DNA from: Sulfitobacter sp. W027
GTDB taxonomy: Bacteria; Pseudomonadota; Alphaproteobacteria; Rhodobacterales; Rhodobacteraceae
Length of the DNA stretch: 64,000 bases
Assembly: GCF_025143985.1 (NCBI RefSeq)
Contig: NZ_CP083564.1
Coordinates: 2,233,501-2,297,500, forward strand
Direction of reading: 5' to 3'
The position numbers were made by a program, and so were the translations under genes. Every line of letters begins with the position of its first letter. Position 1 is the stretch's first letter. Below the pieces are notes generated by a model. It was not told the DNA's origin. It did no database searches and was given only the letters and a program-made list of their open reading frames with translations. This document shows positions 11,931 to 36,513 of the stretch, in pieces.

Positions 11931-12692
11931 CTACCGAAGGGCTGCGCCCGCCGCATCGCCAAGCCGCGCCGCCATTTCGCGATAGGGGAATGGCCCGTGG
12001 CTGATCCGAGCCACGCCACAGGCCGAAAGTGCTGCGTTATCCGGGGCGGTTGGTGATTTCAGCACGTTCACTGGCAGATCGACTGCGGCGCAGACCTGCG
12101 CGATCAGCGCAGGGTCGATAAGACCGGGCACGAAGTAGCCGCTTGCGCCAGCCTCCCCATAGGCCCGCCCCCGGCGGATGGCCGCGTCGATCTGCGCGGC
12201 GTGATCTTTGACCGCGGATTGCAAGAACAGATCGCAGCGCGCGTTGATGAACAACGGCACTCCTTCTGCTTCCGCCGCCCCGCGAATTGCCTCGATGCGC
12301 CGTCTTTGCAGGTCGATGTCATGCAGACCGTCGCCGCCCACCACCTGATCTTCAAAGTTCAGGCCCACCGCACCCGTGCCGATCAAAGCGCGGATGTTGT
12401 CGCCCAAATCCTCTGGCGAAATGGCGTAGCCGCCCTCGAAGTCGATGCTGACCGGAAGATCGACCGCCTGCACAATCTCGCTCGCAACGCGCAACAATCT
12501 GTCCAGCGGCAAGGCCTGCCCATCCGCAAACCCCTGCGCTGCGGCAACCGACCAAGACCCTGTCGCGATCGCCTTGGCCCCGGCATCTGCCACAGTCCGG
12601 GCCGATCCTGCGTCCCAGATATTATACAGCACCAGCGGGTTGCCCTTGCTGTGCAGAAAGGCAAACTCCCGTGCAAAACCCTGCTGATCCAC
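11931..12692 (-). CDS. Isocitrate lyase / PEP mutase family protein
   Basis: A 253-residue TIM-barrel protein of the isocitrate lyase/phosphoenolpyruvate mutase superfamily. Recognisable segments are LYNIWDAGSARTVADAGAKAIATGSWSVA at the N-terminus, the metal-binding VSIDFEGGYA (Asp and Glu) and GLNFEDQ. The lyase loop Cys found in true isocitrate lyases is not evident, so the reaction (C-C lyase or phosphonate chemistry) cannot be fixed. It lies between gdhA and the sox operon on the same strand, 67 bp upstream of soxB. Confidence 0.85.
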   Translation of the reverse strand: MDQQGFAREFAFLHSKGNPLVLYNIWDAGSARTVADAGAKAIATGSWSVAAAQGFADGQALPLDRLLRVASEIVQAVDLPVSIDFEGGYAISPEDLGDNIRALIGTGAVGLNFEDQVVGGDGLHDIDLQRRRIEAIRGAAEAEGVPLFINARCDLFLQSAVKDHAAQIDAAIRRGRAYGEAGASGYFVPGLIDPALIAQVCAAVDLPVNVLKSPTAPDNAALSACGVARISHGPFPYREMAARLGDAAGAALR

Positions 12693-12718
12693 CGCCGAGA
12701 CCTCCCTAAATGCAACTC

Positions 12719-12738
12719 GGGGGGGCGCATGCCCCCCC
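12719..12738 (-). terminator. GC hairpin after gdhA
   Basis: A perfect 8-bp stem of GGGGGGGC and GCCCCCCC encloses a 4-nt loop 12 bp after the gdhA stop codon. There is no U-tract on either strand, so it may stabilise the 3' end or act as a weak terminator; Rho involvement cannot be judged. Confidence 0.5.
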
Positions 12739-12749
12739 GGTATGATCTT

Positions 12750-14180
12750 TTACAGTCCCTTGGCGCGGTAGCTTGCCGCCACCTTTTCGATTGAGACCAG
12801 ATAGGCCGCCGTGCGCAGGTCGTCTACGTCATCGCGGCTGTGCCAGACATTTGCCATGGCCTCATAGGCTGTGCGCATCGTGTCATCGAGACCCGACCGG
12901 ACCAGTTCCAACTCGCCCGCCCCGCGCAGATACTTCTCTTTGAAGTTCGGGCTCAGGGTCCAGCCCAGTTCCTTGTCAGCCGAAAGCCGCTCCAACTCGT
13001 CGACCACCAGTTGGTGGCGCGATTCCTCGGCGCGGCGCTGCATGCGGCCAAAACGGATGTGGCTCAGGTTCTTGACCCATTCGAAATAGGACACCGTCAC
13101 ACCGCCGGCGTTGGCATACATGTCCGGCACAATCACGGTGCCCTTCTTGCGCAGCACTTCGTCGGCCCCGGCGGTCACCGGGCCGTTCGCGGCCTCGATA
13201 ATCAGCGGAGCCTTGATGCGCTTGGCGTTGCCGAGGTTAATCACCCCTTCAAGTGCTGCCGGGATCAGGATGTCGCATTTCGCTTCAAGCAGCTTGGCAC
13301 CATCGGCTTCGCAATGGGTGTCGGGATAGCCGGTGATGGTTCCGTGTTTGGTGATCCACTGGTGAACCGCCTCTACGTTCAGCCCGTCTTCGTCATGCAA
13401 CGCGCCGTCGCGTTCGATGATTGCGGTGATCTTGCAACCGTCTTCCTCGCTCAGGAACTTGGCGGCGTGATAGCCCACATTGCCGAGACCCTGAATGATG
13501 ACGCGCTTACCCTCAAGCTTACCGCTTAGACCGGCCTTTTTCAGCCCTTCGGGATCGCGGAAGAACGCCTGAAGCGCATATTGCACGCCCCGGCCCGTGG
13601 CCTCGGTCCGGCCTTGGATGCCGCCCGCGTTGATCGGCTTGCCGGTCACACAGGCGACACCGTTGATGTCGGTGGTGTTCATGCGTTTGTACTGGTCCGC
13701 GATCCACGCCATCTCACGTTCGCCCGTGCCCATGTCGGGCGCGGGCACGTTTTGGGCGGGGTTGATCATGTCGCGCTTGATCAGCTCATAGGCAAACCGC
13801 CGGGTGATCAACTCAAGCTCGTGCTCGTCATAATCGCGCGGGTCGATGCACAGCCCGCCCTTAGAGCCGCCAAAGGGCGCTTCGACCAAAGCGCATTTAT
13901 AAGTCATCAACGCCGCCAGCGCCTCGACCTCGTTCTGGTTCACCGCCATGGAATAGCGGATGCCGCCCTTTACGGGCTCCATATGCTCGGAATGGACCGA
14001 GCGGTAGCCGGTGAAAGTATGGATACGGCCGCGCAGGCGCACGCCAAAGCGCACGGTATAGGTGGCATTGCAAACGCGGATTTTCTCTTCAAGACCGGGT
14101 GGCAAATCCATCAGCGCGACCGCGCGGTTGAACATCAGGTCCACACTGTCGCGGAAACTCGGCTCATTGGCTGGATTCAT
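12750..14180 (-). CDS. Glutamate dehydrogenase (Glu/Leu/Phe/Val family)
   Basis: A 476-residue oxidative deaminase that interconverts glutamate and 2-oxoglutarate plus ammonia. The catalytic region has VKGGIRYSMAVNQNEVEALAALMTYKCA and APFGGSKGGL with the substrate-binding lysines near residues 75-110. The dinucleotide fold has IIQGLGNVGYHAAKFL near residue 235, and ANGPVTAGADEVL follows. The size matches the short hexameric class. It may be NAD- or NADP-linked; the sequence alone does not decide. It probably heads its own transcript and links amino-acid catabolism by the neighbouring operon to the TCA cycle. Confidence 0.95.
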   Translation of the reverse strand: MNPANEPSFRDSVDLMFNRAVALMDLPPGLEEKIRVCNATYTVRFGVRLRGRIHTFTGYRSVHSEHMEPVKGGIRYSMAVNQNEVEALAALMTYKCALVEAPFGGSKGGLCIDPRDYDEHELELITRRFAYELIKRDMINPAQNVPAPDMGTGEREMAWIADQYKRMNTTDINGVACVTGKPINAGGIQGRTEATGRGVQYALQAFFRDPEGLKKAGLSGKLEGKRVIIQGLGNVGYHAAKFLSEEDGCKITAIIERDGALHDEDGLNVEAVHQWITKHGTITGYPDTHCEADGAKLLEAKCDILIPAALEGVINLGNAKRIKAPLIIEAANGPVTAGADEVLRKKGTVIVPDMYANAGGVTVSYFEWVKNLSHIRFGRMQRRAEESRHQLVVDELERLSADKELGWTLSPNFKEKYLRGAGELELVRSGLDDTMRTAYEAMANVWHSRDDVDDLRTAAYLVSIEKVAASYRAKGL

Positions 14181-14532
14181 CGGTCTCTCCTCTTCTTATC
14201 TGGCCGCGTTACCTCTGGTTCTGGGGCGCGACTCATCTGGCTGCCCTTGGGGCATGCCGCGGCACCCTAGGATGCCTCTTTGCAAGGTGCGACCTATTTA
14301 ATCGCTATTTGCAAAACTTTATCAACCGTGGGTAGGCAAGGGTCAGCCCCCCTCCCCGAACAAGGGAATACCCGCGACTTTGCAGGGGCTTTTTCCCGCG
14401 AAACCTCCCCCGTTCGCCGCCTAATGCCCCAGATGCGCCAAACTCTGGACACTTTCCCCCAGCAAAAGAATGACAAGGCAAATGCCGTCCATTCCCTTTG
14501 GCGCATGCTGCGTGCCAAAGGAAGAAAGGTTG
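14181..14532. other. Intergenic region between divergent gdh and TadG-like genes
   Basis: This 352-bp gap separates divergently transcribed genes and should contain both promoters. I see a pair of TTTGCAA direct repeats (14279-14285 and 14308-14314, 29 bp apart) in an AT-richer stretch, and a short GGCAT...ATGCC inverted repeat near 14251. No convincing -35/-10 pair, RNA gene or coding potential is visible. Confidence 0.4.
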
Positions 14533-15969
14533 ATGACGATGACCACACCACCTCGGAGTTCAGGGTTTCCCCGGCGGCGCTTGCCCGCGATGCTTCAGCG
14601 TTTCGCACGCGAAGAAGACGGGCTGGTCACACTGTTTGCCATTCTGATGATCCTGTTGATGATCCTTATGGGCGGTGTCGGCGTTGACCTGATGCGCCAC
14701 GAGCGGGAACGCTCAAGGGTGCAGGCCGTAGCCGACCGTGCGGTGCTGGCGGCGGCCGACCTCGATCAGACACTCAGCCCCGAAGCTGTCGCCCGCGACT
14801 ATTTCGACAAGTCAGGGCTGGCCGACTACATCTCAAGCGTGAAGGTTGAAGAGGGGTTGAACTACCGCCGTGTCACGGTCGATGCCTCGCGCGATCTGAA
14901 CACCATGTTCATGAGCAAGTTCGGCCAAGACAAGCTGCATGTCCCCGCCAAAGCAACGGCGGAAGAAAAAGTAGCCAAAGTTGAGATTTCCATGGTGCTC
15001 GATATCTCCGGCTCCATGCGTGAAAACGGCAAAATGGCCAACCTCCATGATGCCAGTGATGTGTTTATTGATACCGTGCTCAAGCCCGAGAATGCCGATC
15101 TGATCTCAATCTCGGTGGTGCCCTATACCGCGCAGGTGAACATCGGGCAGGACATCATGGATCAGTTGAACATCACTCAGTTGCATTCCTTCTCCCACTG
15201 CGTCGACTTTGACGACAGCGAATTTGACCTTACCGGCATCAGCCAGACCCGCAGCTATGAGCATATGCAGCACTTTGAGGCGGGTTTTAACTGGAACGGC
15301 TATCACCGCGAAAACACCGGGCGCTACGACAATATCTATAACCCCGGCTGTCCGAAACAAAGTTACGAAGAAGTGGCGACCTACTCGCAGAACGCGACCG
15401 CGCTGAAAAACCGTATCTCCAATTTCCAGCCCCGTGCGAACACCGCAATCCATCTGGGGATGAAATGGGGCGTGGCCCTGCTGGACCCGTCCTTCCGCCC
15501 AATCAATCAGGCCATTGGCGGCGATGCTGTGTTCCAAGGACGCCCGGCTGAGTATGACGACATCGACACGCTTAAGACGGTGATCCTGATGACCGACGGC
15601 GTGAACGTGACCACCCGTCGGATCAACCCGCAGGCCTATGCCAACAAAGATCACTACCGCCACTGGAGCGATTACCCCTTTTACTGGTGGCTTAACCGCA
15701 ATGTCCGCTCCAGCGAACATTACCGGTGGTACACGACCAAATACACCGCCACTCAGGCCGATAATTTGCTGGATAAGATCTGCGATGCGGCCAAGGCTAA
15801 AGGCATCGTGATCTGGTCCATCGGCTTTGAAGTGACCGACCACGGCGCGTCTGTGATGAAAAACTGCGCCTCGTCGGACAGCCATTTCTTCCGCGTCGAA
15901 GGGGTTGAGATCGTAAACGCTTTTGAAGCCATCGCACGGCAGATCAATCAGTTGAGACTGACCCAATGA
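14533..15969 (+). CDS. TadG-like protein with von Willebrand factor A domain
   Basis: A 478-residue envelope protein. A single hydrophobic helix at about residues 30-55 (LFAILMILLMILMGGVGVDLM), with a basic segment before it, anchors the protein as in TadE/TadG. The periplasmic part carries a VWA domain with a MIDAS motif, DISGSM, near residue 156 and the later TDG at about 355. VWA TadG proteins accompany Flp/Tad adhesive pili. Overlap with the next gene (ATGA) shows coupling. No tadA/tadB/cpaF machinery is in this window, so the partner pilus system must be elsewhere, or this is a stand-alone surface cluster. Confidence 0.85.
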   Translation: MTMTTPPRSSGFPRRRLPAMLQRFAREEDGLVTLFAILMILLMILMGGVGVDLMRHERERSRVQAVADRAVLAAADLDQTLSPEAVARDYFDKSGLADYISSVKVEEGLNYRRVTVDASRDLNTMFMSKFGQDKLHVPAKATAEEKVAKVEISMVLDISGSMRENGKMANLHDASDVFIDTVLKPENADLISISVVPYTAQVNIGQDIMDQLNITQLHSFSHCVDFDDSEFDLTGISQTRSYEHMQHFEAGFNWNGYHRENTGRYDNIYNPGCPKQSYEEVATYSQNATALKNRISNFQPRANTAIHLGMKWGVALLDPSFRPINQAIGGDAVFQGRPAEYDDIDTLKTVILMTDGVNVTTRRINPQAYANKDHYRHWSDYPFYWWLNRNVRSSEHYRWYTTKYTATQADNLLDKICDAAKAKGIVIWSIGFEVTDHGASVMKNCASSDSHFFRVEGVEIVNAFEAIARQINQLRLTQ

Positions 15970-16505
15970 TACAGAGAACCATCAAAGCATGGCGTCGGTT
16001 TCGCGGTGATGAGAATGGCTCGGTGATGCTGATGGAGTTCGCCATCCTGTCGCCGCTGCTCTTTGGCTGTCTGCTTATGTCGCTGGAGATGAGCTTTTAC
16101 GCCATGCGCCACATGTTCCTCGACCGAGGCTTGGATATGACGGTGCGCTACATCCGGCTGAACACCAATACAGAGATGACGCATCAGACGATCAAAGACA
16201 AAATCTGCGAGTCGGCTGTGTTTTTGGAGGACTGCAAAACGACCCTGCGCCTTGAAATGATCCGCGTTGATCCACGCAATTTCGCAACCTTTGATCAGAC
16301 CCCTGATTGCGTCGATACTTCCGAAGACCCCAAACCGGTGCGCGGCTGGAACCTTGGGGTGGAGCACCAGTTGATGCTGCTGCGCGCCTGCGCCCAATTC
16401 GAACCCTTCTTTCCGACCACCGGCCTTGGCTATGCCCTTAAGAAAGACGGCGCAGGCCGTGTTTCCATGGTCTCAAGCGCGGCCTTCGTACAGGAGCCGA
16501 ACTGA
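15966..16505 (+). CDS. TadE/TadG-like pilus assembly protein
   Basis: A 179-residue protein with the TadE-type N-terminus: a short basic stretch, then DENGSVMLMEFAILSPLLFGCLLMSLEMSFYA at about residues 17-48, in which a Glu precedes the membrane helix as in pseudopilin-like TadE. The remainder is a soluble periplasmic domain with several cysteines. It overlaps the genes on both sides by 4 bp and 1 bp. Its role in Flp pilus biogenesis is inferred from family and context. Confidence 0.85.
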   Translation: MIQRTIKAWRRFRGDENGSVMLMEFAILSPLLFGCLLMSLEMSFYAMRHMFLDRGLDMTVRYIRLNTNTEMTHQTIKDKICESAVFLEDCKTTLRLEMIRVDPRNFATFDQTPDCVDTSEDPKPVRGWNLGVEHQLMLLRACAQFEPFFPTTGLGYALKKDGAGRVSMVSSAAFVQEPN

Positions 16506-17053
16506 TGTGCGTGCTGTCCTCCATGCTGACCCGATTCAAGCGGAGCGAAGAGGGCTCGATCGCCGTTGAGACGGTGATCATGCTGCCGCTGATGTTCTGG
16601 GCCTATCTGGCCATGTATTCGACCTTTGACACCTTCCGCATGTACAACCTCAACCAGACGGCAGCCTATACCGTCGGCGACGCCATCTCACGCGAGACAC
16701 AGGCGATTGATCCCAATTACCTGCAAGGGATGCATGAACTGTTTGAGTATCTAACCCGCGGCACCGGTCAGACGGCGATCCGCGTGAGTTCCATTTGGTA
16801 TGATCAGGAAAACGATCGCTTCCACACCGATTGGTCGCAGGTTCGGGGTACCGTTCAGCCTTTGACCAGTGAGGATGTGCACAGCTGGCACAGCAAACTG
16901 CCCGTCATGCCCAACAACGAACGTGTCACCTTGGTGGAGACATGGCGCGATTTCGATCCGCTGTTCAAAACCGGGTTAGAGCGCCGCGACATCTATAACT
17001 TCGTCTTCACCCGTCCACGCTATGCGCCGCGCACGGTCTGGTCTGACAGTTAA
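16505..17053 (+). CDS. TadE/TadG-like pilus assembly protein
   Basis: A 182-residue second TadE-like protein. The N-terminus (FKRSEEGSIAVETVIMLPLMFWAYLAMYSTFDTFRM) has the Glu before the hydrophobic helix at about residues 22-45, then a periplasmic domain. The start overlaps the previous stop by one base, completing a three-gene unit. Its 3' end overlaps the convergent membrane-protein gene by 4 bp. Confidence 0.84.
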   Translation: MCVLSSMLTRFKRSEEGSIAVETVIMLPLMFWAYLAMYSTFDTFRMYNLNQTAAYTVGDAISRETQAIDPNYLQGMHELFEYLTRGTGQTAIRVSSIWYDQENDRFHTDWSQVRGTVQPLTSEDVHSWHSKLPVMPNNERVTLVETWRDFDPLFKTGLERRDIYNFVFTRPRYAPRTVWSDS

Positions 17054-27866: not shown

Positions 27867-29408
27867 ATGTTCCGGGTCGCCCATAGTATTCATCATGACC
27901 ACGACCTTGGGCTGGTGCTGCTGGCGGCCCTGCTGTGCGTTTTTGGAAGTTGGGTCGTCTCGCGGCTCTATCACCATGTGCTTGAGCAGCCGCGCTCACA
28001 GGCGATGATCTGGTGTTACCTCACCGCGATGACCGCCGGGGTTACGATTTGGTGCACCCATTTCATTGCGATTCTCGCCTATCAGCTTGATGCGCCCGCA
28101 ACGTTCCACTTTTCGCTGACGTTCCTGTCGCTGATCATCGCCATTGTCGGATCGACATTGGGCGTCATTATCGCAGGCGTAATCAAGTCGCGCCGCGCAA
28201 CGCTCTTGGGCGGGACGATCTTTGGACTGGCGATCTCGGCCATGCATTACACCGGCATGATCGCCTACCGGGTGCAGGGCGCGATCAATTGGGACATGGG
28301 CTATCTGACCGCCTCAGTGATCATTGCAGTGGTGCTCGCGACGCTCGCGCTCGGCGCTGCGCGGCGCGGGGGGCTGGGCAGTATCTTGTGGATGACAGCG
28401 CTCTTGGCCTTGGGCATCATCCTTTTGCACTTCACCGGCATGGCCGCCTTTCAGGTGACACCGCTCACCGCGCAGCCGCTCTATGTCAATCCGGTCGAGT
28501 ACCGCCTTATTGCACTTATCATCGCGGGCACAGCCGCCATTATCGCGTTGGCCGCGCTCTTTAGCTATGTCGTCGAAAATCGTACCCGCAATGAAAGCGT
28601 CGAAGAATTGCGCCAAGCCCGCGATGCCGCTGAAAGCGCAAGCCGTGCGAAATCGGAATTCATGAGCGTGCTCAGCCATGAGCTGCGCACCCCGCTGACC
28701 ATCGTTATCGGCTACGCCAGCTTCCTGTCGGAACTCAAACGCCACAACCTTGCCAAGCTCGCACCGGAGGAGAAACCGGCGTCTGAGCATTTCGACAAAA
28801 TGGGTGATCAGGCAGAACTTTACGGCCAGCGCATCAAATTCGCGGGCGGGCAATTGCTGACCATCATCAACGATATCCTCGACTACACAAATATGGAGCT
28901 CAACGACCTCGCGCTGGACAAGACCGCCTTCGACGCCCGCGAGCTGTTGGAGGAAGTGGTTGAGCTGCACCACGGCTCTGCCCATGACAAGTCCGCAACA
29001 CTGCATATCGACACGCCGCCGCTCACCGTCACAGCCGACCGCCGCCGTAGCCTGCAACTGCTCGGCCATATTGTCGGCAACGCGCTGAAATTCTCCAAGG
29101 CGCGCGATATTTACCTGCGAGTCCGGCCCCATACAGGCGGGTTCTGCTTTGATGTCGAAGACAATGGCGTGGGCATCGCCGCGCAAGATCTGGACCGCAT
29201 TTTCGAAGCCTTCACGCAGATCGAAGACGCCGATGACCGCGCCGAAGGCGGCACGGGTTTGGGGCTGGCGATTTGCAAGAAACTGGCCCTCGCCCATGGC
29301 GGCGACATCACGGTCAAAAGCACGCTTGGTCAGGGCACGACCTTTACCGTTTTCATATCCGGCGCCACGCAAATGGCGGAGCCTGCGATGCTCGCCCAAG
29401 CGAGCTAA
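27867..29408 (+). CDS. MHYT-domain sensor histidine kinase
   Basis: A 513-residue membrane kinase. Residues 15-235 form a seven-helix MHYT sensor with the three repeats marked by THF (about 64), HYTGM (127) and HFTGM (188), proposed to bind copper and sense O2, CO or NO. A short coiled segment leads to the HisKA domain with phospho-acceptor His271 (SHELRTP), then a complete HATPase with N box (GNALKF), DNGVGI and GGTGLGLAI. The start at 27867 has AGGA five bases upstream, better than a GTG at 27843. No response regulator is adjacent, so it is an orphan kinase. Confidence 0.93.
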   Translation: MFRVAHSIHHDHDLGLVLLAALLCVFGSWVVSRLYHHVLEQPRSQAMIWCYLTAMTAGVTIWCTHFIAILAYQLDAPATFHFSLTFLSLIIAIVGSTLGVIIAGVIKSRRATLLGGTIFGLAISAMHYTGMIAYRVQGAINWDMGYLTASVIIAVVLATLALGAARRGGLGSILWMTALLALGIILLHFTGMAAFQVTPLTAQPLYVNPVEYRLIALIIAGTAAIIALAALFSYVVENRTRNESVEELRQARDAAESASRAKSEFMSVLSHELRTPLTIVIGYASFLSELKRHNLAKLAPEEKPASEHFDKMGDQAELYGQRIKFAGGQLLTIINDILDYTNMELNDLALDKTAFDARELLEEVVELHHGSAHDKSATLHIDTPPLTVTADRRRSLQLLGHIVGNALKFSKARDIYLRVRPHTGGFCFDVEDNGVGIAAQDLDRIFEAFTQIEDADDRAEGGTGLGLAICKKLALAHGGDITVKSTLGQGTTFTVFISGATQMAEPAMLAQAS

Positions 29409-29421
29409 GTTTCGGCAAAAG

Positions 29422-29437
29422 TGGTGCGGGCGGTGGG
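29422..29437. repeat. attL: 16-bp copy of tRNA-Leu 3' end
   Basis: TGGTGCGGGCGGTGGG, the reverse complement of the tRNA 3' terminal CCCACCGCCCGCACCA. It lies 13 bp after the kinase stop and 143 bp before the integrase start. Nothing else of the tRNA is present here, as expected for the distal attachment site. Confidence 0.88.
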
Positions 29438-29580
29438 CATCCAACTACTATATCTTGATGCACCACGGAATGCCGAACCCCCAGTAAAATAGTTGCATCT
29501 GCTGGATTTCTTGTATCAAGGCACTTCACAATACCCCGTGGCATACCATATCTTGAGGGGGATAGAGAGGTGGACTGATA

Positions 29581-30780
29581 ATGGGCCGCGCAACAAATCG
29601 ACTGAGTGCATCGGCGGTCAAAGCCGCGCCCGCTGGCAAACATGCGGATGGCGGAGGTCTCTGGCTGGTCAAGCGACCCGATGGCGGCGCGCAGTGGGTG
29701 CTTCGTGTCACCCCGCACGGTAGACGGCGCGAGATGGGCCTTGGGGCTTATCCGGACGTTTCACTGAAAGAGGCCCGCGAGTCTGCGGAGCAATGGCGGA
29801 GACTTGTGCGGGAAGGTCTGGACCCTATCAAGGAACGGGAACGACAGCGCCGTGAAGCGGCCCGCAACATTCACAAGCTGGCTGATATCGCTTTGGACGC
29901 GTTCGAAAGCCGCAAGGCTGAGCTTAAAGGTGACGGTAAGGCGGGGCGCTGGTTCTCCCCTCTCGAATTGCACATCCTGCCAAAGCTGGGGCAAGTGCCA
30001 GTAGCAGATATCGACCAGCGAGACATTCGCGACACCCTTGCGCCTATCTGGCACACCAAAGCCGCGACTGCCGAAAAAGCAATGAGCCGCCTGAACATCG
30101 TCCTGCGACACGCGGCGGCGCTGGGGCTGGAGGTGGATCTGCAAGCGACCGAAAAGGCTAAGGCGCTACTAGGTCGCCAACGACACACTGTCACGAATGT
30201 TCCCTCTCTGCCTTGGCAAGAGGTGCCAGCTTTCTACCAGTCGCTTGGCGGCAGTATTACAGAACTGGCGCTGCGCTTGCTAATCTTGACCGGAGCGCGG
30301 TCTGGGCCAGTGCGGAATATCCATATTGACCAAATCGAAGGCGATGTTTGGACCATTCCGGCAGAGGGCATGAAGGGCCGCAAAGATGCGACAAAAGACT
30401 TCCGCATCCCTTTGTCGAAAGAGGCCCAGCGCGTGATTGCAGAGGCGCGCAAGTTTGCTCGCGACGGATTTTTGTTTCCTAGTGTCAAACGTGGCGTGAT
30501 TTCTGATATGACTATGACTGCGTTTATGAAGCGTCGGGGCATGGCCGAACGCCCTCATGGATTCCGTACATCTTTACGTGTCTGGCTGGCAGAGGCCACT
30601 GACGCTCCCTATGACGTCGCAGAAATATGCATTAGCCATGTCGTAGGCTCAAAAACAGTACAAGCTTACAAGCGGACAGACTACTTAGAACGACGCCGAG
30701 CACTTTTGGAGCGATGGGCAGATGTTGTAGCCGCTGAAAGTCCAGAGATACTTCGTTTTGTCGGAGCGAAAGCCCCATGA
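29581..30780 (+). CDS. int: P4-type tyrosine recombinase/integrase
   Basis: A 399-residue site-specific recombinase. The N-terminal DUF4102 arm-binding domain (DGGGLWLVKRPDGGAQWVLRV) covers about residues 1-85, then a core-binding SAM-like domain, then the catalytic domain with Arg240 (TGAR), His326-x-x-Arg329 (HGFR), His353 (SHVVG) and nucleophile probably Tyr363 (AYKR). All key residues are present, so the enzyme should be active. It is 143 bp from the attL core. Its stop overlaps the start of the next gene (ATGA), so the integrase and the following unknown gene are translationally coupled. Confidence 0.96.
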   Translation: MGRATNRLSASAVKAAPAGKHADGGGLWLVKRPDGGAQWVLRVTPHGRRREMGLGAYPDVSLKEARESAEQWRRLVREGLDPIKERERQRREAARNIHKLADIALDAFESRKAELKGDGKAGRWFSPLELHILPKLGQVPVADIDQRDIRDTLAPIWHTKAATAEKAMSRLNIVLRHAAALGLEVDLQATEKAKALLGRQRHTVTNVPSLPWQEVPAFYQSLGGSITELALRLLILTGARSGPVRNIHIDQIEGDVWTIPAEGMKGRKDATKDFRIPLSKEAQRVIAEARKFARDGFLFPSVKRGVISDMTMTAFMKRRGMAERPHGFRTSLRVWLAEATDAPYDVAEICISHVVGSKTVQAYKRTDYLERRRALLERWADVVAAESPEILRFVGAKAP

Positions 30781-31622
30781 CACCTAATGCGAAGAAGTTC
30801 AAAGTCGGGCTTGACGAGTATTGGAGTGTACCTGCTGAGGATTTGCCGGAAATGGGTATATCTGTGGTTGGGAACTATATATTTCCGGTCGAGAAGCCAG
30901 ACGATAAATTAAAGTTCCCATCTTCAAGCTCTAGCGAGAATATGGGGTTCTATGCGACCTCCGGCGCGATTCAACACTTTGTCAATCGAGAGCGGCCCTA
31001 TGGACCACCCGCGCCCATTCGCCCGTCGGATCAATCGAAGGGTTTTGCCGCGATACAATTAGCGCTGTTTGACGATTTAGAGGTAGATTTTGAATGCCTT
31101 GAAGTCCTCAATGCCCATGGCTGGCTGGAGAGGAACGGCGAGATTAAGCGAGATTTAGTCGCGGATATTGCTAAGATAGACGGCGTTTGCTCCATAACTA
31201 AAGCAAAAATTCAGTTTGGAGAAAATTGGGAGGTTCTTCTTCTGGAACGCGCTGCCGTTCATTTTGCCGAACCACTTTCAAGGCTTTGGTATGCCGCGAA
31301 CATTCGGTCACTTTATTATGCGCACCATGATGATATCCGCGTAGGCTACCTGTGGGCCGAATATCGGTTTAAAATGAAAATGGAACTGAATACCCTTAGA
31401 GGAGAAAAGGTTCTGAAGGCGGCAGCTAAAGCGGCAGATCAAACAAATTCGGCCCATATTGGCCTTAGAGAAGCCCGCTTCAGAGTGATGGAGAGGTTTG
31501 TTCCGACAATCGGGCCTGACAAAGCCGCCATTGAATGTGAACTACGAGGGCTCGGGAGCGCTCAGGCCGTCAAACGTCAGTGGAATAGGTTTCAAGGCGG
31601 AGGGAGAGACACCCCAAAATGA
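30777..31622 (+). CDS. Hypothetical element protein, paralogue A
   Basis: A 281-residue protein that I do not recognise. It has no signal peptide or membrane helix. The second half shares with the next gene a EPxxRxWYAAN segment, a GYLWxEYRxKMxME segment and an identical C-terminal 32 residues beginning VPTIGPDKAA. The N-terminal 130 residues are much less alike, suggesting a variable front and conserved tail. It overlaps the integrase stop and the next start by 4 bp each. The role may be in element maintenance or cargo; neither is shown. Confidence 0.8.
   Translation: MTPNAKKFKVGLDEYWSVPAEDLPEMGISVVGNYIFPVEKPDDKLKFPSSSSSENMGFYATSGAIQHFVNRERPYGPPAPIRPSDQSKGFAAIQLALFDDLEVDFECLEVLNAHGWLERNGEIKRDLVADIAKIDGVCSITKAKIQFGENWEVLLLERAAVHFAEPLSRLWYAANIRSLYYAHHDDIRVGYLWAEYRFKMKMELNTLRGEKVLKAAAKAADQTNSAHIGLREARFRVMERFVPTIGPDKAAIECELRGLGSAQAVKRQWNRFQGGGRDTPK
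31498..31594 (+). repeat. 97-bp perfect direct repeat, copy 1
   Basis: The 3' part of paralogue A is identical, including all third codon positions, to 32325-32421 in paralogue B. Sequence on both sides diverges at once, with several mismatches in the preceding 40 bp. Confidence 0.9.
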
Positions 31623-32443
31623 AACCCCCTCTCGATAAGCTAGTCACGATAGATGGCATAGAATTTACCGTAATTGACCATCCTTCCGGAGAACGGTGGC
31701 TGGCTCCGCATGATTCAGAGAAGCAAAAAAAGCATTTCCCTGTAGAATGGCCACTTCTGCAATCTTATCTAACTGCCTCTCGCGGCATCTCTGCTCACAT
31801 ACTCGATCCGTTCTCGGATAGAGAAAACAAAGAACTCGGCTTGCCTTCAAACCGTTCAACCTCTGGTTTTTCGGCTGCCCACCTCAACCTCACTGGCGAT
31901 TGGAATTTCTATCCGGAGTGTATGGATGTTCTAGATGCCAACGATTGGCTAGCGGAACCGTATGGCCCACTTTCAAAGCAGATATTGGAAACCGTGTGCC
32001 GTGAGGATGGAGAGGGCATCTTGACCAAATCACAGGATGTCTTCGGGGATGGATGGGAACATTACATTGCGGAGAGAGCTAGCATATATGTCACCGAACC
32101 GTTTACGCGCGTTTGGTACGCGGCGAATATGCTGTCGGCCTATTTTGCGCGAAACGATGAGCTCTTATTTGGTTACCTTTGGTGCGAATATCGTCTTAAA
32201 ATGCGCATGGAGAGAAATGCTCGCACTGGCTCAAAAGTAATCGCAGGAACTAAACTCGCGGCCCACCAAACCAACATTGCTCATTCCAGTCTTAGAGAAG
32301 CACGCTTTAGGATGATGGAGAGGCTTGTTCCGACAATCGGGCCTGACAAAGCCGCCATTGAATGTGAACTACGAGGGCTCGGGAGCGCTCAGGCCGTCAA
32401 ACGTCAGTGGAATAGGTTTCAGAGCAAAAAGAGGGACACCTAG
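31619..32443 (+). CDS. Hypothetical element protein, paralogue B
   Basis: A 274-residue paralogue of the preceding gene, overlapping it by 4 bp. Shared features are EPFTRVWYAAN, FGYLWCEYRLKMRMERN and LREARFRMMERLVPTIGPD, ending in a C-terminal block identical to paralogue A over 32 residues. It has no signal peptide, membrane segment or known catalytic motif. The arrangement int-A-B looks like a single transcript. Function is unknown. Confidence 0.8.
   Translation: MKPPLDKLVTIDGIEFTVIDHPSGERWLAPHDSEKQKKHFPVEWPLLQSYLTASRGISAHILDPFSDRENKELGLPSNRSTSGFSAAHLNLTGDWNFYPECMDVLDANDWLAEPYGPLSKQILETVCREDGEGILTKSQDVFGDGWEHYIAERASIYVTEPFTRVWYAANMLSAYFARNDELLFGYLWCEYRLKMRMERNARTGSKVIAGTKLAAHQTNIAHSSLREARFRMMERLVPTIGPDKAAIECELRGLGSAQAVKRQWNRFQSKKRDT
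32325..32421 (+). repeat. 97-bp perfect direct repeat, copy 2
   Basis: Second copy of the 31498-31594 block, 827 bp downstream. Recombination between the copies would delete most of paralogue B and leave one chimeric gene in frame. Confidence 0.9.
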
Positions 32444-32502
32444 GCCGCTGTCCCGAAGTCAGATCGGTAGAAGTGTTTCATGCGACAACATGGAGCACAA
32501 AC

Positions 32503-32673
32503 ATGCAGTATCTTTCATTTCGCGACCTTCAAGCCAAGCTCGGCGGACGTGGCCGCACCACCATCTATCGTGACGTCGATCTAGGCCGCTTGCCTAAACC
32601 ACTAAAAATTGGCTCCCGTCTTTACTGGAACGAAGCTGATATCGACGCCATCCTTCAAGCAAATGCCAAATAA
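32503..32673 (+). CDS. AlpA-family HTH regulator / excisionase-like
   Basis: A 56-residue protein with the AlpA/MerR-like winged helix: YLSFRDLQAKLG, TTIYRDVDLGRLPKPLKIGSR and the closing WNEADIDAIL. In P4-like elements AlpA proteins activate or direct integrase-mediated excision. ATG 32503 follows GGAG with 8-bp spacing; an in-frame ATG at 32473 lacks a site. It is separated from paralogue B by 59 bp. Confidence 0.85.
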   Translation: MQYLSFRDLQAKLGGRGRTTIYRDVDLGRLPKPLKIGSRLYWNEADIDAILQANAK

Positions 32674-32784
32674 CCACATCCCCGCCATGCAGAGCGCATG
32701 GGCGGCGGATGTAGCGTTTTCCGTGGAAGGAATGCTTGCACCCTACCCCCAGCGCCTTGCGGCATCAACCGTGAGGACTTCCCT

Positions 32785-33072
32785 ATGTCTCAAGACCGTT
32801 TTTACTCTAGCGACTCTCATGTGTTTTGGACGTGCAAAGCACTGCTGGACAAGCGCACCATCAGCCACAAGACCGAGATACGCGAGGTTAAAGGATGGCG
32901 GCTCGGCGCTATCATCCACCGACTACGCCACCACTACGACTGGCCGATCTATGCCGAGTATCGCGGCCCGCAGAACGTTGCGCATTATTCCCTGAAAGCA
33001 GGGGTAGACCGCAGCAAGCTGCGCTTCCCTCCGTCCGCGCGCGCCTTGGCTGATGAAGGGGGCGCAAAATGA
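32785..33072 (+). CDS. Hypothetical phage-type protein
   Basis: A 95-residue protein, mostly a small winged-helix-like region (TISHKTEIREVKGWRLGAIIHRLRHHYDWPIYAEYRG) of a type common in prophages and islands of Rhodobacterales; that resemblance is from memory. The start at 32785 has GAGGA about 9 bases upstream. Its stop overlaps the next small gene (ATGA), beginning a string of overlapping genes. Confidence 0.7.
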   Translation: MSQDRFYSSDSHVFWTCKALLDKRTISHKTEIREVKGWRLGAIIHRLRHHYDWPIYAEYRGPQNVAHYSLKAGVDRSKLRFPPSARALADEGGAK

Positions 33073-33170
33073 CCCCTGCTATCATTCGCCGCCTGTGCCG
33101 CCAGTTTGGCCTGACCGATACACAAGCCCGCTTGATCTGGGCGCTGCACTATGGGGGCAAACATGACTGA
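33069..33170 (+). CDS. Small 33-residue protein
   Basis: A 33-residue frame (MTPAIIRRLCRQFGLTDTQA...) that starts in the ATGA overlap with the previous gene and ends by overlapping the next gene by 8 bp. It is basic and helical. It is supported only by its perfect fit into the overlapping series, which would otherwise have a gap. Confidence 0.5.
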   Translation: MTPAIIRRLCRQFGLTDTQARLIWALHYGGKHD

Positions 33171-33333
33171 CCCACATACGCGCATAACTAAAGACAAAGG
33201 CAAATGGCACGTCATGGCCCGCAGGACCGCGCAGGGAGCCGCAGAAGGCGTCTGGGTGTCTCTAGGTGGCTGCGCTTGCCAGATGACTGCTGTGCGGCTC
33301 TGGCTGGCCTGTCTTACGGTGGACAAACGCTGA
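33163..33333 (+). CDS. Small hypothetical protein
   Basis: A 56-residue basic protein beginning MTDPHTRITKDKGKWHV, with two close cysteines (GGCACQ). It overlaps the previous small gene by 8 bp and the next start by one base (TGATG). I do not recognise it. Confidence 0.6.
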   Translation: MTDPHTRITKDKGKWHVMARRTAQGAAEGVWVSLGGCACQMTAVRLWLACLTVDKR

Positions 33334-33722
33334 TGGCAGGCAAACCATACAAACACAAAAAGAGGGGGGCTGGGCGTTTCGTCCAGCTTCCCGAATGGGT
33401 GCTGGCGACACCAGCATGGGCTACCCTGCCCCCCGGTCCACGCGCGCTCTACGTTGAATTGAAACGGCGCTACAACGGCGCAAACAACGGCGAGATATTC
33501 CTCAGTCACCGCGACGCGGCAGTTGCCTTGCACGTTCACCGCAACACGGTCGGGCCTTGGTTCAAGATGCTAGAGGAACGCGGCTTCATCCACATGACCC
33601 GCGCCCCGCACCTTGGCTCTTCCGGCGTTGGTCGCGCATCGACATGGGCATTGGCAGAGGCGTCTACAATCGACGGCAGTAGAGCGTCGCTAGCCTTCAA
33701 GAAATGGAGAATCCCCGCATGA
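33333..33722 (+). CDS. HTH-domain phage-type protein
   Basis: A 129-residue protein whose core (RFVQLPEWVLATPAWATLPPGPRALYVELKRRY, LSHRDAAVALHVHRNTVGPWFKMLEERGFI) looks like a winged helix of the replication-initiator or GntR-like type found in small phage elements. The basic N-terminus (KPYKHKKRGAGR) fits DNA binding. It overlaps neighbours at both ends. It may be a replication or regulatory protein of the element. Confidence 0.72.
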   Translation: MAGKPYKHKKRGAGRFVQLPEWVLATPAWATLPPGPRALYVELKRRYNGANNGEIFLSHRDAAVALHVHRNTVGPWFKMLEERGFIHMTRAPHLGSSGVGRASTWALAEASTIDGSRASLAFKKWRIPA

Positions 33723-33997
33723 ATACTGTGTATGCCTTGTCACAAATATTGGGCGTCGTTTTGCGATTGGGGCAGTCATGCCCAGAATATGTGACGCCTT
33801 CCATTCGTTCTACCGTGAGCGGCGACACAGCAAAGGTGACACATATACATTTAGCCATAGGCTGGGATGAAAGGCGGGAGGCACCAAGAAGTTCAGCCCG
33901 CATGTTCTCGGACCCGATACGGGCTGCGAAATACGCACATCCACAATTCAGGGAACTTGGGGGCCATTGGGCGGGAAACCCCCAACTTGGCTTATGA
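33719..33997 (+). CDS. Hypothetical protein
   Basis: A 92-residue protein starting in an ATGA overlap with the preceding gene. It has no signal peptide, membrane helix or motif that I recognise. The overlap is the main reason to believe it. Confidence 0.55.
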   Translation: MNTVYALSQILGVVLRLGQSCPEYVTPSIRSTVSGDTAKVTHIHLAIGWDERREAPRSSARMFSDPIRAAKYAHPQFRELGGHWAGNPQLGL

Positions 33998-34024
33998 TTT
34001 CGTTGAAAAAACGGGGAATATCGT

Positions 34025-34666
34025 ATGGGCGGTTTCGGATCTGGGCGTAGCGGCCACAAACTGAAGGCAGAGCATTGTAAGTCTCTGGACGTGAACCGCC
34101 TTCACCGGGAAGGATGTTTGCGACCCGGCATGCGCGGCAACTGGGTTTGGTCGCGCGACGGGGAGGAAGTTGGGCGGATTGGCTACTCGGCAGAGCAAGG
34201 CCGACTTACTCTAAGCTACCGCTTTCAGCGGTATGGTGAGGAGTGGGAATCGATAAAAGAGGCCGTCCACCTCAGCCACGCGGATTGTCACTACGGCAAC
34301 CAGCGGCCTTACTTTCTTTGTCCCGGCGTTCTGAACGGACGGCACTGCGGGCGGCGCGTAGGAAAGCTTTTCTTAGGGGGCCGCTACTTCCTCTGCCGCC
34401 ACTGCTGCGGCATCTCCTATGCCAGTCAGTCAGAGCCTCGCTATGACCGCATGCTGCGCCGCGCCAACAAACTTCGTGTCGCGCTGGGCGGCGAACCGGG
34501 CACGGTGAATTGCATAGCACCCAAGCCAAAAGGCATGTGGCATCGCACCTACCAGCGTAAACGGTTTGAAATAGAATGGTGCGAGCACCAAGCAGACCGA
34601 CTTTTCATCGCAAAATATGCACATCTTCTTACCGGGGACGAGCGAGCCTTGTTCGACTTGAGTTAA
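34025..34666 (+). CDS. Zinc-ribbon protein of mobile elements
   Basis: A 213-residue protein that starts MGGFGSGRSG, a start I recall from a widespread family of mobile-element proteins of unknown function. After a SLDVNRLHREGCLRPG segment it has an insert domain and a four-cysteine zinc ribbon (CPGVLNGRHCGRRV, CRHCCGISYASQ) at about residues 99-135. A basic C-terminal region follows. The gene lies 27 bp after the previous one. Nucleic-acid binding is a reasonable guess. Confidence 0.78.
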   Translation: MGGFGSGRSGHKLKAEHCKSLDVNRLHREGCLRPGMRGNWVWSRDGEEVGRIGYSAEQGRLTLSYRFQRYGEEWESIKEAVHLSHADCHYGNQRPYFLCPGVLNGRHCGRRVGKLFLGGRYFLCRHCCGISYASQSEPRYDRMLRRANKLRVALGGEPGTVNCIAPKPKGMWHRTYQRKRFEIEWCEHQADRLFIAKYAHLLTGDERALFDLS

Positions 34667-34824
34667 GTAGTGCACAACGTCGCGCCAGTAGCGGAAGACC
34701 TGCCAGTTGAGAGCAGAGGACGTGTGAATATGACACACTTCAACCATTGCGCGAAGATTGACTTGTGAAGACTCGAAAGCTTTTGCATTTTCTCCGCGGA
34801 ATCAAACAAAAGCGCAATGAGTGA

Positions 34825-35655
34825 ATGACCAATAAAATTTTAACTGCATTAACTTCTGCCTTCATCATGGCGGCTTCGGTAGCTGCCTCACAGCCCGAAG
34901 AAGGATACCCCTCCCCAGCTGGAAATGTTCGGGTAGTTGGGGAAAGCTACGAAAAAACTCTCTATGTAGGAGAAACGAAGTTTGACCTTGGTTCTCAACA
35001 CCTAATCAGTGTCAGAGAGCCGTCCGAAGAAGGGTTCTCGGAACATTTCCCAAATCATTTCCTAATCTGGGAATGGGGTGGAGGAAGTATGTGTCACGGT
35101 TTCTTCCGCTGGCTAAATGCAAACGAGACGCCGCCAAAGCTGACTGAGAGTTTCGGAACTTGTAAGGACGTTGCAAATAACCTTCGTGTTGAAGACGGAA
35201 AGGCAATTTTCGAGCTTTACGGAGCAGGCAGCGAAGGCCGTGTCTCTTTTATCTATGATGGGGAACAAGTAACCGAGCGGAACGCTGGTCTTGACGGAAT
35301 TTCTAAGGTCGCCAACCCGTATGACCCGGAAGCTTGGATCGGAGAACATCCGTGGATCTACTTCGCAGCTCCCGAAAATGAAGCATTCTTGACCGACCTT
35401 CTCGGCTGGGAACTGCTTGACCAGCTCAGGTTCTACGGAGTGGGAAGCGAATTTACTGAAGACGAAGGCTGGGTAGTGGGAAGATTGTGCCAACAATCCC
35501 AATGCAACACCAACAAGCTTGTAGTTGCGATATCAAAATCTACAGCAATGCCCTATATCGCGTACAAGCATTGGAAACACGAGGAATGGAGGTTTATTGG
35601 GGACGCCCCGGAAAAAATGCCGAACTCAGTACGCGGCTATTTGGCGGAGGGCTAA
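34825..35655 (+). CDS. Secreted hypothetical protein, element cargo
   Basis: A 276-residue protein with a signal peptide (MTNKILTALTSAFIMAASVAAS, cleavage about residue 22). The mature domain is acidic with four cysteines (MCHGFF, GTCKD, LCQQSQC) likely to form disulfides in the periplasm. No family is recognised. Base composition is more AT-rich than the flanking chromosome. It lies 158 bp after the zinc-ribbon gene and 6 bp before the membrane-anchored gene, so the two are likely one operon. Confidence 0.72.
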   Translation: MTNKILTALTSAFIMAASVAASQPEEGYPSPAGNVRVVGESYEKTLYVGETKFDLGSQHLISVREPSEEGFSEHFPNHFLIWEWGGGSMCHGFFRWLNANETPPKLTESFGTCKDVANNLRVEDGKAIFELYGAGSEGRVSFIYDGEQVTERNAGLDGISKVANPYDPEAWIGEHPWIYFAAPENEAFLTDLLGWELLDQLRFYGVGSEFTEDEGWVVGRLCQQSQCNTNKLVVAISKSTAMPYIAYKHWKHEEWRFIGDAPEKMPNSVRGYLAEG

Positions 35656-35661
35656 ACTTAG

Positions 35662-36243
35662 ATGTTCCAGATTCTTTCTCGGATTTCCCCGCTCGGCAAA
35701 CTAATCGAGCATTCGGCAAACGCACTTACGGTCGTAGGTGGCGCCATAGGCCTCTATGCTGTCGCACATCCAGAAACCATCGCGACCTACCTCGATCGCA
35801 TAGACCAAAATGTCGACATTATTGCCGAAAGCATCCCGCTCTGGCCTGTTGTTGAGGGTCTTGAAACTCAGTTCACGCCACCTCGCTTCGCCGGATTCAC
35901 GGTAGAAATAGCCAACCCCAAGAACCTTGTAGTTAACGATTTCTCAATCCACGCCGAGTTCAACCATCCGAGTGCAGGAGAAAGCTTCACTCTTGTAGGC
36001 CCCAGCCTCCTGCCCCCAAATGAAGTTGTCACTTTTTCGAGGAATATCATTCGAAAGCCGTGGTTCGTCGCTCTACAGCGCAACGGCGAAGTGCAACTTC
36101 TTGTTTGCATGTCTGGCTCCCTCGAAGGAAACGATGAAGTTTTCTATGAAGGGCGGCTTTATACCGTGGATCTAGCTGAAGAGACTTCAGTCCTAAGCGG
36201 ACGAAAATTCTCACTTGGTGAAAACAGCGCATGTGAAAAGTGA
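35662..36243 (+). CDS. Membrane-anchored hypothetical protein, element cargo
   Basis: A 193-residue protein with one N-terminal hydrophobic helix (ANALTVVGGAIGLYAVA, about residues 19-36), then a soluble domain of beta-strand character (FAGFTVEIANPKNLVVNDFSIHAEF...NEVVTFSRNI) that may be Ig-like and face the periplasm. No known family is recognised. It follows the secreted partner by 6 bp and ends 184 bp before the tRNA attachment site, in the usual cargo position at the end of an element. Confidence 0.7.
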   Translation: MFQILSRISPLGKLIEHSANALTVVGGAIGLYAVAHPETIATYLDRIDQNVDIIAESIPLWPVVEGLETQFTPPRFAGFTVEIANPKNLVVNDFSIHAEFNHPSAGESFTLVGPSLLPPNEVVTFSRNIIRKPWFVALQRNGEVQLLVCMSGSLEGNDEVFYEGRLYTVDLAEETSVLSGRKFSLGENSACEK

Positions 36244-36426
36244 TAGTCGATCATCATCCGCTCTAGTGAGTTGCCAAAGTGGGGAGAGCGACATGCTCTT
36301 CCCACATTTGTTGACAAGCTAGCTTTGCTTTGCACGCACCGGAACTCGAACGGGGGACCAATAGGGGGATAGGCCACCCCGTATCGATGCCAACGCACTG
36401 ATATAAAGCATAAAACAGAAAAATGA

Positions 36427-36513
36427 TGGTGCGGGCGGTGGGACTCGAACCCACACGGGGCTACGCCCCAACAGATTTTAAGTCTGGTATGTCTACCATT
36501 CCATCACGCCCGC
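36427..36513 (-). tRNA. tRNA-Leu (anticodon UAA), CCA encoded
   Basis: The reverse strand folds as a type II tRNA: 7-bp acceptor stem GCGGGCG/CGCCCGC, D arm with GGTAGA, anticodon loop CTTAAAA giving anticodon TAA, a long variable arm (GGGGC-GTA-GCCCC), T arm TGGG-TTCGAGT-CCCA and an encoded 3' ACCA. The 3' end (36427-36442) is the attR copy of the 16-bp core, so integration left the tRNA intact. Confidence 0.97.

Follow-up and report, generated by a model that had tools for sequence, protein, structure and literature searches.

The DNA analysed here, 64,000 nt of Sulfitobacter sp. W027 (NZ_CP083564.1, positions 2,233,501 to 2,297,500; hereafter the window), carries a small integrative element at 29422..36442, inserted in a gene for tRNA-Leu(UAA). 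The target gene (36427..36513, reverse strand; found with ARAGORN) is intact, and its last 16 nt, CCA included, are the attachment (att) core TGGTGCGGGCGGTGGG. On the forward strand the core is present exactly inside the tRNA 3' end (36427-36442) and, by sequence match to that end, at the distal position 29422-29437, with a core-to-core spacing of 7005 bp. No further copy with one mismatch or fewer was found in the whole window, and the core recurred in none of 100 dinucleotide shuffles. The initial annotation had claimed this exact duplicate 7005 bp away and a sharp loss of identity outside the cores, and both were borne out, the second by comparison with relatives: sequence identity stops immediately outside both cores. 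It had also suggested that related genomes with an empty site should show one uninterrupted core, which was the case in all five relatives matching the tRNA and the next gene at 87-92% across the full query (G009, G026, G003, G062 and G024). In these genomes the histidine-kinase gene that ends at window position 29408 directly adjoins the intact tRNA, and the window flanks fused at the core align straight through the empty site. Three other genomes (G012, G023 and G013) were uninformative because the histidine kinase is not adjacent to this tRNA there. A related but different element, with 5667 bp between its cores, occupies this tRNA in G033. The exact core, the empty sites and this different element at the same tRNA demonstrate that an integrative element recombined into the 3' end of tRNA-Leu(UAA) at the 16-nt core, the tRNA remaining whole. 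The element has the features of a tRNA-targeting genomic island, namely a tyrosine integrase, a duplicated tRNA 3' end and an empty site in relatives, and its G+C content is 53.4% versus 61.5% and 63.7% in the 10-kb flanks. A Rfam scan returned the tRNA, one sub-threshold match and nothing else. We note that 36336-36359, located just within the element where it meets the tRNA, resembles a tRNA T-arm and 3' end; this stretch had no second match with up to three mismatches in the genome of the strain itself (G000, 4.1 Mb, 5 contigs).

From the distal core to the tRNA the genes run int, c1, c2, an AlpA-like gene, o5, o6, o7, o8, o9, zn and two cargo genes, all on the forward strand. The gene at the end distant from the tRNA (29581..30780) encodes a P4-like tyrosine integrase, in which domain scans identified Arm-DNA-bind_3, Phage_int_M and Phage_integrase. 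The integrase looks intact, in line with the earlier description of a P4-type integrase with all catalytic residues next to the core: it has the three domains, and R240, H326, R329, H353 and Y363 are kept in 32 of 32 aligned family integrases, a count that excludes the catalytic lysine. The AlpA-like helix-turn-helix (HTH) protein (32503..32673) matched HTH_17 (1.5e-5) and Phage_AlpA (4e-4), both slightly below the curated cut-off. Beyond it lie o5 (32785..33072), a small conserved protein; o6 (33069..33170) and o7 (33163..33333), open reading frames (ORFs) of 33 and 56 aa; o8 (33333..33722), a winged-helix protein of 129 aa; o9 (33719..33997), a poorly conserved ORF; and zn (34025..34666), an MGG[FY]GSGR protein with cysteine pairs. 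The DNA of the window element shares two conserved blocks with that of the G033 element, 29422-30680 (81%) and 32503-34644 (77%), the second beginning at the alpA start codon, and no DNA similarity was found between or beyond them. These blocks therefore define two slots, slot 1 from int to alpA and slot 2 from zn to the tRNA (from 34645). Room for cargo had been proposed at both ends; it exists at the tRNA end, but the other slot is right after int, between int and alpA.

In the window, slot 1 holds c1 (30777..31622), whose start overlaps the int stop by 4 nt, and its paralogue c2 (31619..32443; 54% over 199 aa), whose start overlaps the c1 stop by 4 nt. The protein database contained 24 more homologues of c1 and c2; 12 positions, a WYA motif among them, are invariant. 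The proteins directly after int are highly diverse across the family, a few groups being alike. For a model of c1 (mean predicted local distance difference test score, pLDDT, 83.4) the best Foldseek match in the PDB had an E value of 0.89, which is not proof of a new fold. From their position, and not their sequence, c1 and c2 would be partners in excision. An exact 97-bp direct repeat, at 31498-31594 and 32325-32421, forms the C-terminal ends of c1 and c2; amid otherwise diverged genes, this may represent recent conversion or partial duplication.

The element belongs to a widespread family whose members combine a constant core with two variable slots. We mapped 39 loci carrying o8, of which 27 are bounded by a repeated tRNA end; loci were counted as bounded if a copy of the core lay 50-400 bp ahead of int, a criterion that by itself places int at the far end in all 27, which is therefore not a result. 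The repeat is 14-30 nt long and the bounded elements span 3729-13379 bp (median 5667), those above 10 kb (L066, L069, L071, L093, L099 and L106) perhaps including ordinary chromosome. The other 12 (L067, L076, L083, L084, L085, L087, L089, L090, L094, L101, L103 and L105) were set apart on the grounds of contig ends, a tRNA or int not found, opposite order or a missing second core. Within the bacterial family of the strain, the target genes encode tRNAs for Leu (UAA, CAG, GAG, UAG), Ser (UGA, GCU, GGA, CGA), Thr (GGU, UGU, CGU), Arg (CCG) and Ala (GGC); Leu, Ser, Thr and Arg tRNA genes are also among the Rhodobacteraceae prophage sites given in the part of PMC8224337 used here, and so are common to both. 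The usual plan is int, a post-integrase gene, an AlpA-like gene, a winged-helix gene, o8, cargo and the tRNA. An AlpA-like gene was detected by tblastn or motif in 25 of the 27 bounded elements and by neither in L095 and L104. An ORF of 120 aa or more starts near the int stop in 23 and overlaps it in 19, taking the start codon nearest to the stop; in L106 this ORF is a transposase-type gene. Of the 27, 13 have o5 and 13 have zn, and an HTH_91 winged-helix protein takes the o5 slot in L074, L081 and L098. A search of genome contigs with the zn protein gave two distant loci, L025 and L026, both from the gammaproteobacterial genus Parahaliea, where zn lies beside tRNA-Pro genes and int is adjacent to the tRNA. 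Among open-licence PMC full texts we found no paper describing these elements. At L067, L076, L083 and L094 the contigs end within or just beside the element, which may reflect multiple copies or a circular form at assembly.

The hallmark of the family is o8, a probable replication initiator judging from fold and profile. Its best fold and profile matches were to replication initiators, with a best Foldseek E value of 1.6e-3; plasmid RepA/DnaD-type initiators were top yet weak matches, and general winged-helix chains scored close. The statement in the initial annotation that no gene was replicative in a recognisable way is thus probably wrong for 33333-33722, given its weak resemblance to replication initiators. 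Counting the strain itself, o8 was present in 15 of 62 genus genomes (E <=1e-20), in 21 of 295 family genomes (E <=1e-25) and, with an alignment as query (E <=1e-10), in 15 of 289 genomes sampled across the class. The strain's own genome has no o8 copy besides that in the window. A profile search retrieved 1081 proteins; of the 120 matches listed, those with a name were called hypothetical, helix-turn-helix or MocR-type regulator. Many of the profile matches are on contigs merely 4-8 kb long. Tritonibacter mobilis NZ_CP015231.1, a 1.26-Mb replicon in PLSDB, has a related o8 (56%) at about 66964-69787, along with other sequence similar to the element.

Between alpA and o5, alignment, covariance and folding revealed a conserved structured segment (32671..32787, forward strand) in which a middle strand has two alternative partners. 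The interval is 111-118 nt long in 14 aligned elements (about 117 nt in the window), these being 14 of the 16 loci with tblastn matches to alpA and o5; L091 and L101 did not align and were dropped. In the consensus, a near-invariant outer helix and an inner stem comprise 7 pairs each, and 4 pairs of the stem are changed on both sides. Pairing was possible in 94.9% of 196 cells versus 86.8% in shuffled alignments (0/500 as high) and dropped to 33.2-45.4% when the strands were slid by 1-3 columns. Cells with a double change numbered 21 versus 10.0 in shuffles (0/500); the number of pairs with a double change (4) and that of further pair types (8) were not above shuffles (256/500 and 194/500). 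An alternative 5' hairpin (-22 to -29 kcal/mol) using the same middle strand can fold in 14 of 14, and whole-region folding gave a mean z of -3.3 (range -2.2 to -6.2). With 9 G-U cells on the gene strand against 4 A-C cells, RNA is favoured just slightly over DNA. A covariance model matched 18 of 63 sources at E <1e-8, representing 17 elements as L107 is the same stretch as L067; the 18 comprise the 14 training rows, L107 and the new L098, L074 and L094. Weak matches at the same place were seen in L095 (E 0.15) and L099 (E 0.45), and the remaining weak matches were mostly reverse strands of strong ones. The segment is present in 13 of 15 bounded Leu/Thr elements versus none of 12 bounded Ser/Arg/Ala elements, and it was absent from eight other tRNA-Leu(UAA) loci (L057-L064) and from the eight IMG/VR contigs searched. 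It may act as a regulator RNA, an origin or a packaging site.

The distribution of targets points to exchange between elements. A tree of 26 integrases separates a Ser/Arg/Ala side from a Leu/Thr side (100/100), and target labels need 7 changes on it versus 13.0 when shuffled (0/200 as low). On the o8 tree the labels need 11 changes (26/200 shuffles as low), and the window o8 groups with the Ser elements L070 and L093 and with L092 (99/98). L074 is absent from the trees, a clean int frame not having been found. As the int and o8 trees disagree, the integration and o8 modules have been reassorted, which speaks for activity: by these phylogenies, integrase type tracks target tRNA and o8 is swapped between types.

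The initial annotation had reported no structural or conjugative genes, and this is upheld by the ten window proteins examined in each scan (Pfam, PHROGs, PADLOC and NCBIfam) and by 55 ORFs of small relatives. The latter are the non-core ORFs scanned from 21 bounded elements below 8 kb, 6 having been dropped and L091 having none. At 1e-4 they matched eight Pfam families (HTH_91, Fic, SNase, DUF3800, Rap1a, DUF5681, MerR and SWIM) and, in PHROGs, 15 families mostly of function unknown, with two endonuclease and two regulator families; terminase, capsid, relaxase, helicase and primase families were not among the Pfam and PHROGs matches. Capsid or packaging genes of its own, the mark of a capsid-forming phage-inducible chromosomal island, were lacking in the window proteins and the 55 ORFs. 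Relaxase or mating-pair genes, as in integrative mobilisable or integrative and conjugative elements (ICEs), were not found in general scans, in which an origin of transfer (oriT) was not searched for. A broader set comprised 111 non-core ORFs with a length of 100 aa or more, of which 97 were scanned after 14 reverse-strand, overlapping or short ones had been dropped; 25 of 39 Pfam and 25 of 46 PADLOC families were among the matches listed. In slot 2 of relatives this set included DarT, DarG and two restriction enzymes of type IIG, names that denote resemblance only; DarT and DarG were placed in L069 and L071 by ORF length and reading. Also by resemblance only, PADLOC matched slot-2 proteins of L079 to Fic (SoFic, 3.7e-50) and of L069 to PDC-S02 (1.2e-134), and six more slot-2 proteins (one each in L065, L070, L092 and L102, two in L078) had no defence-model match. 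A DUF3631-type protein in L106 was deduced from a single match in the set.

P4-like satellites and CP4-type islands share the P4-type integrase, AlpA-like regulator and tRNA target found here, and they are much larger than the window element; P4 replication, capsid-sizing and polarity genes were not recognised among the ten window proteins. The closest parallel in layout is with the phage-inducible chromosomal minimalist islands (PICMIs) of Vibrionaceae, which average 6.7 kb in the part of PMC10803314 used here, the source of the following details too. An int-overlapping gene (iolg) is present in 21 of 35 PICMI subfamilies and contiguous in 4; excision of PICMI115 of Vibrio needs each of int, iolg and alpA and is induced by AlpA in trans; and the helper phage described is virulent. 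Common to PICMIs and the present family are small size, int followed by an overlapping gene, an AlpA-like gene with one or more small genes next, a final core gene for replication (a probable role in the case of o8), cargo that varies on the side of the target site, and no capsid genes. In the window, integrase and AlpA-like genes stand in a small element and c1 overlaps int, as the post-integrase gene does in 19 of the 27 bounded elements. The family differs in using o8 at the primase position and tRNA genes rather than fis. From this layout the element would work like a PICMI, and it lies outside the PICMI definition.

This is a real and probably active minimal integrative element. We propose, with somewhat better than even confidence, that it is an intact, site-specifically integrated hitch-hiker (satellite) which excises and replicates and whose DNA a helper phage packages. 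Excision would be the work of a complex of integrase, post-integrase protein and AlpA, on the model of int, iolg and AlpA in PICMI115. The alpA-o5-o8 genes would be switched on by a signal, probably phage infection, and the structured segment after alpA would control these genes or act as an origin. Replication of the excised circle would be initiated by o8, host or helper enzymes replacing a satellite primase, and the helper phage would package the DNA, a step proposed because no particle or mating genes were recognised. Reliance on a helper, as first suggested, is consistent with the data and strengthened by the PICMI-like layout; the helper itself, excision, replication, RNA control and packaging are what we infer. 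More tentatively, the elements may represent a new family of Rhodobacteraceae phage satellites of minimal size, akin to or convergent with PICMIs: a RepA/DnaD-type winged-helix initiator of 129 aa would stand in for the primase, and a switch of ~117 nt, its middle strand pairing with one or the other of two partners, would control the replication genes, comparably to the CI RNA that sets P4 immunity. On this reading, with some members as short as 3.7 kb, they would rank among the smallest satellites that integrate.

Several observations weigh against a satellite. The primase gene (prim) is mandatory in the PICMI model and fis integration is called a hallmark in the part of PMC10803314 consulted; here, general scans of the window's proteins found no primase family, the published prim model not being used, and the targets are tRNA-Leu(UAA) and, in relatives, other tRNAs. 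The post-integrase proteins resemble PICMI iolg in position only, the o8-initiator matches are weak, and TFIIE chains score nearly as high as initiators (VIA). In L089 and the two distant Parahaliea loci int adjoins the tRNA. An excised circle, a helper or a particle was not seen: no match to o8 or zn was found in 50,697 phage records, and scans of IMG/VR turned up no free element. In IMG/VR the o8 query gave five loci and the zn query one, and these stretches had no terminal repeat of 15-200 nt. As free element copies we rejected L113, a phage-like contig with zn beside a tRNA-Ser, and L108-L112, which carry distant o8 relatives in larger contigs.

An unlikely alternative is a relaxase-less mobilisable element that excises, perhaps replicates, and leaves the cell by conjugation, a resident plasmid or ICE acting on its oriT. 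The lack of particle genes and the relative on the large Tritonibacter replicon would suit this, but scans (in which oriT was not searched for) gave no relaxase family, and the AlpA and post-integrase module is common to phage-size contigs. Self-integration and excision with spread by gene transfer agents (GTAs), generalised transduction or transformation seems quite improbable to us: a 7-kb element exceeds the RcGTA particle, said to hold about 4.5 kb, and a replication-type gene would be unnecessary. In its favour, the sole match in the strain's genome to PF03237, the one terminase family searched, lies in what we take, by eye, to be a GTA cluster, so no resident helper is evident. Few genes, orphan cargo, lower G+C and broken relatives (partial o8 or zn frames with stops) might instead indicate the immobile remnant of a decayed prophage or island. 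This we consider very improbable, as the window genes are open, the cores exact and the same small core recurs across genera, elements down to 3.7 kb keep both cores, and modules have been exchanged. If the satellite interpretation is true, PICMI-type minimal hitch-hikers would be common in a major marine bacterial group and not a Vibrio peculiarity, with a different replication gene and target sites from Vibrio PICMIs. The family is a naturally minimal gene set with which to ask what satellites need; it also explains small islands with defence cargo in tRNA genes and supplies a defined structured segment.

Related integrases also occur in larger elements. Of eight phage-like contigs with such an integrase that were checked, five have a post-integrase ORF, homologous to the post-integrase proteins of the elements in three of the five, and four of the five have an AlpA-like match. 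These five IMG/VR contigs (L119, L120, L121, L125 and L131) are of temperate-phage size (28-37 kb); their integrases are 63-69% identical to that of the window, with an ORF of 278-377 aa at the int stop, and in L119, the one whose genes were read, ParB-, helicase- and primase-like genes, named by eye, follow. Pseudomonas AlpA islands in the transfer-messenger RNA (tmRNA) gene, moved by jumbo phages, share a tyrosine integrase, RNA-gene direct repeats, alpA, defence cargo and a lack of transfer genes, but differ in size (<20 to >70 kb versus 3.7-13 kb), in the tmRNA target and in the core genes RadC and YqaJ, according to the part of PMC12595487 consulted. The window cargo comprises a rare protein with a leader-like N-terminus (34825..35655), with three other homologues and a weak Ivy-domain match below cut-off (E 0.014), and a protein without family in library scans (35662..36243). 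In L093, 6084-10933 holds a DNA polymerase III alpha-type gene (assigned by ORF length from one such Pfam match) and a preceding gene between the cores, which may be cargo or ordinary chromosome. Finally, a second island in the strain's genome (L140, G000:C1:1955500-1975400, about 12393-17025) has an integrase 62% identical to that of the window, a following ORF, two AlpA-like matches, an o6-like match and then an ATPase-like ORF, with phage-like ORFs beyond.

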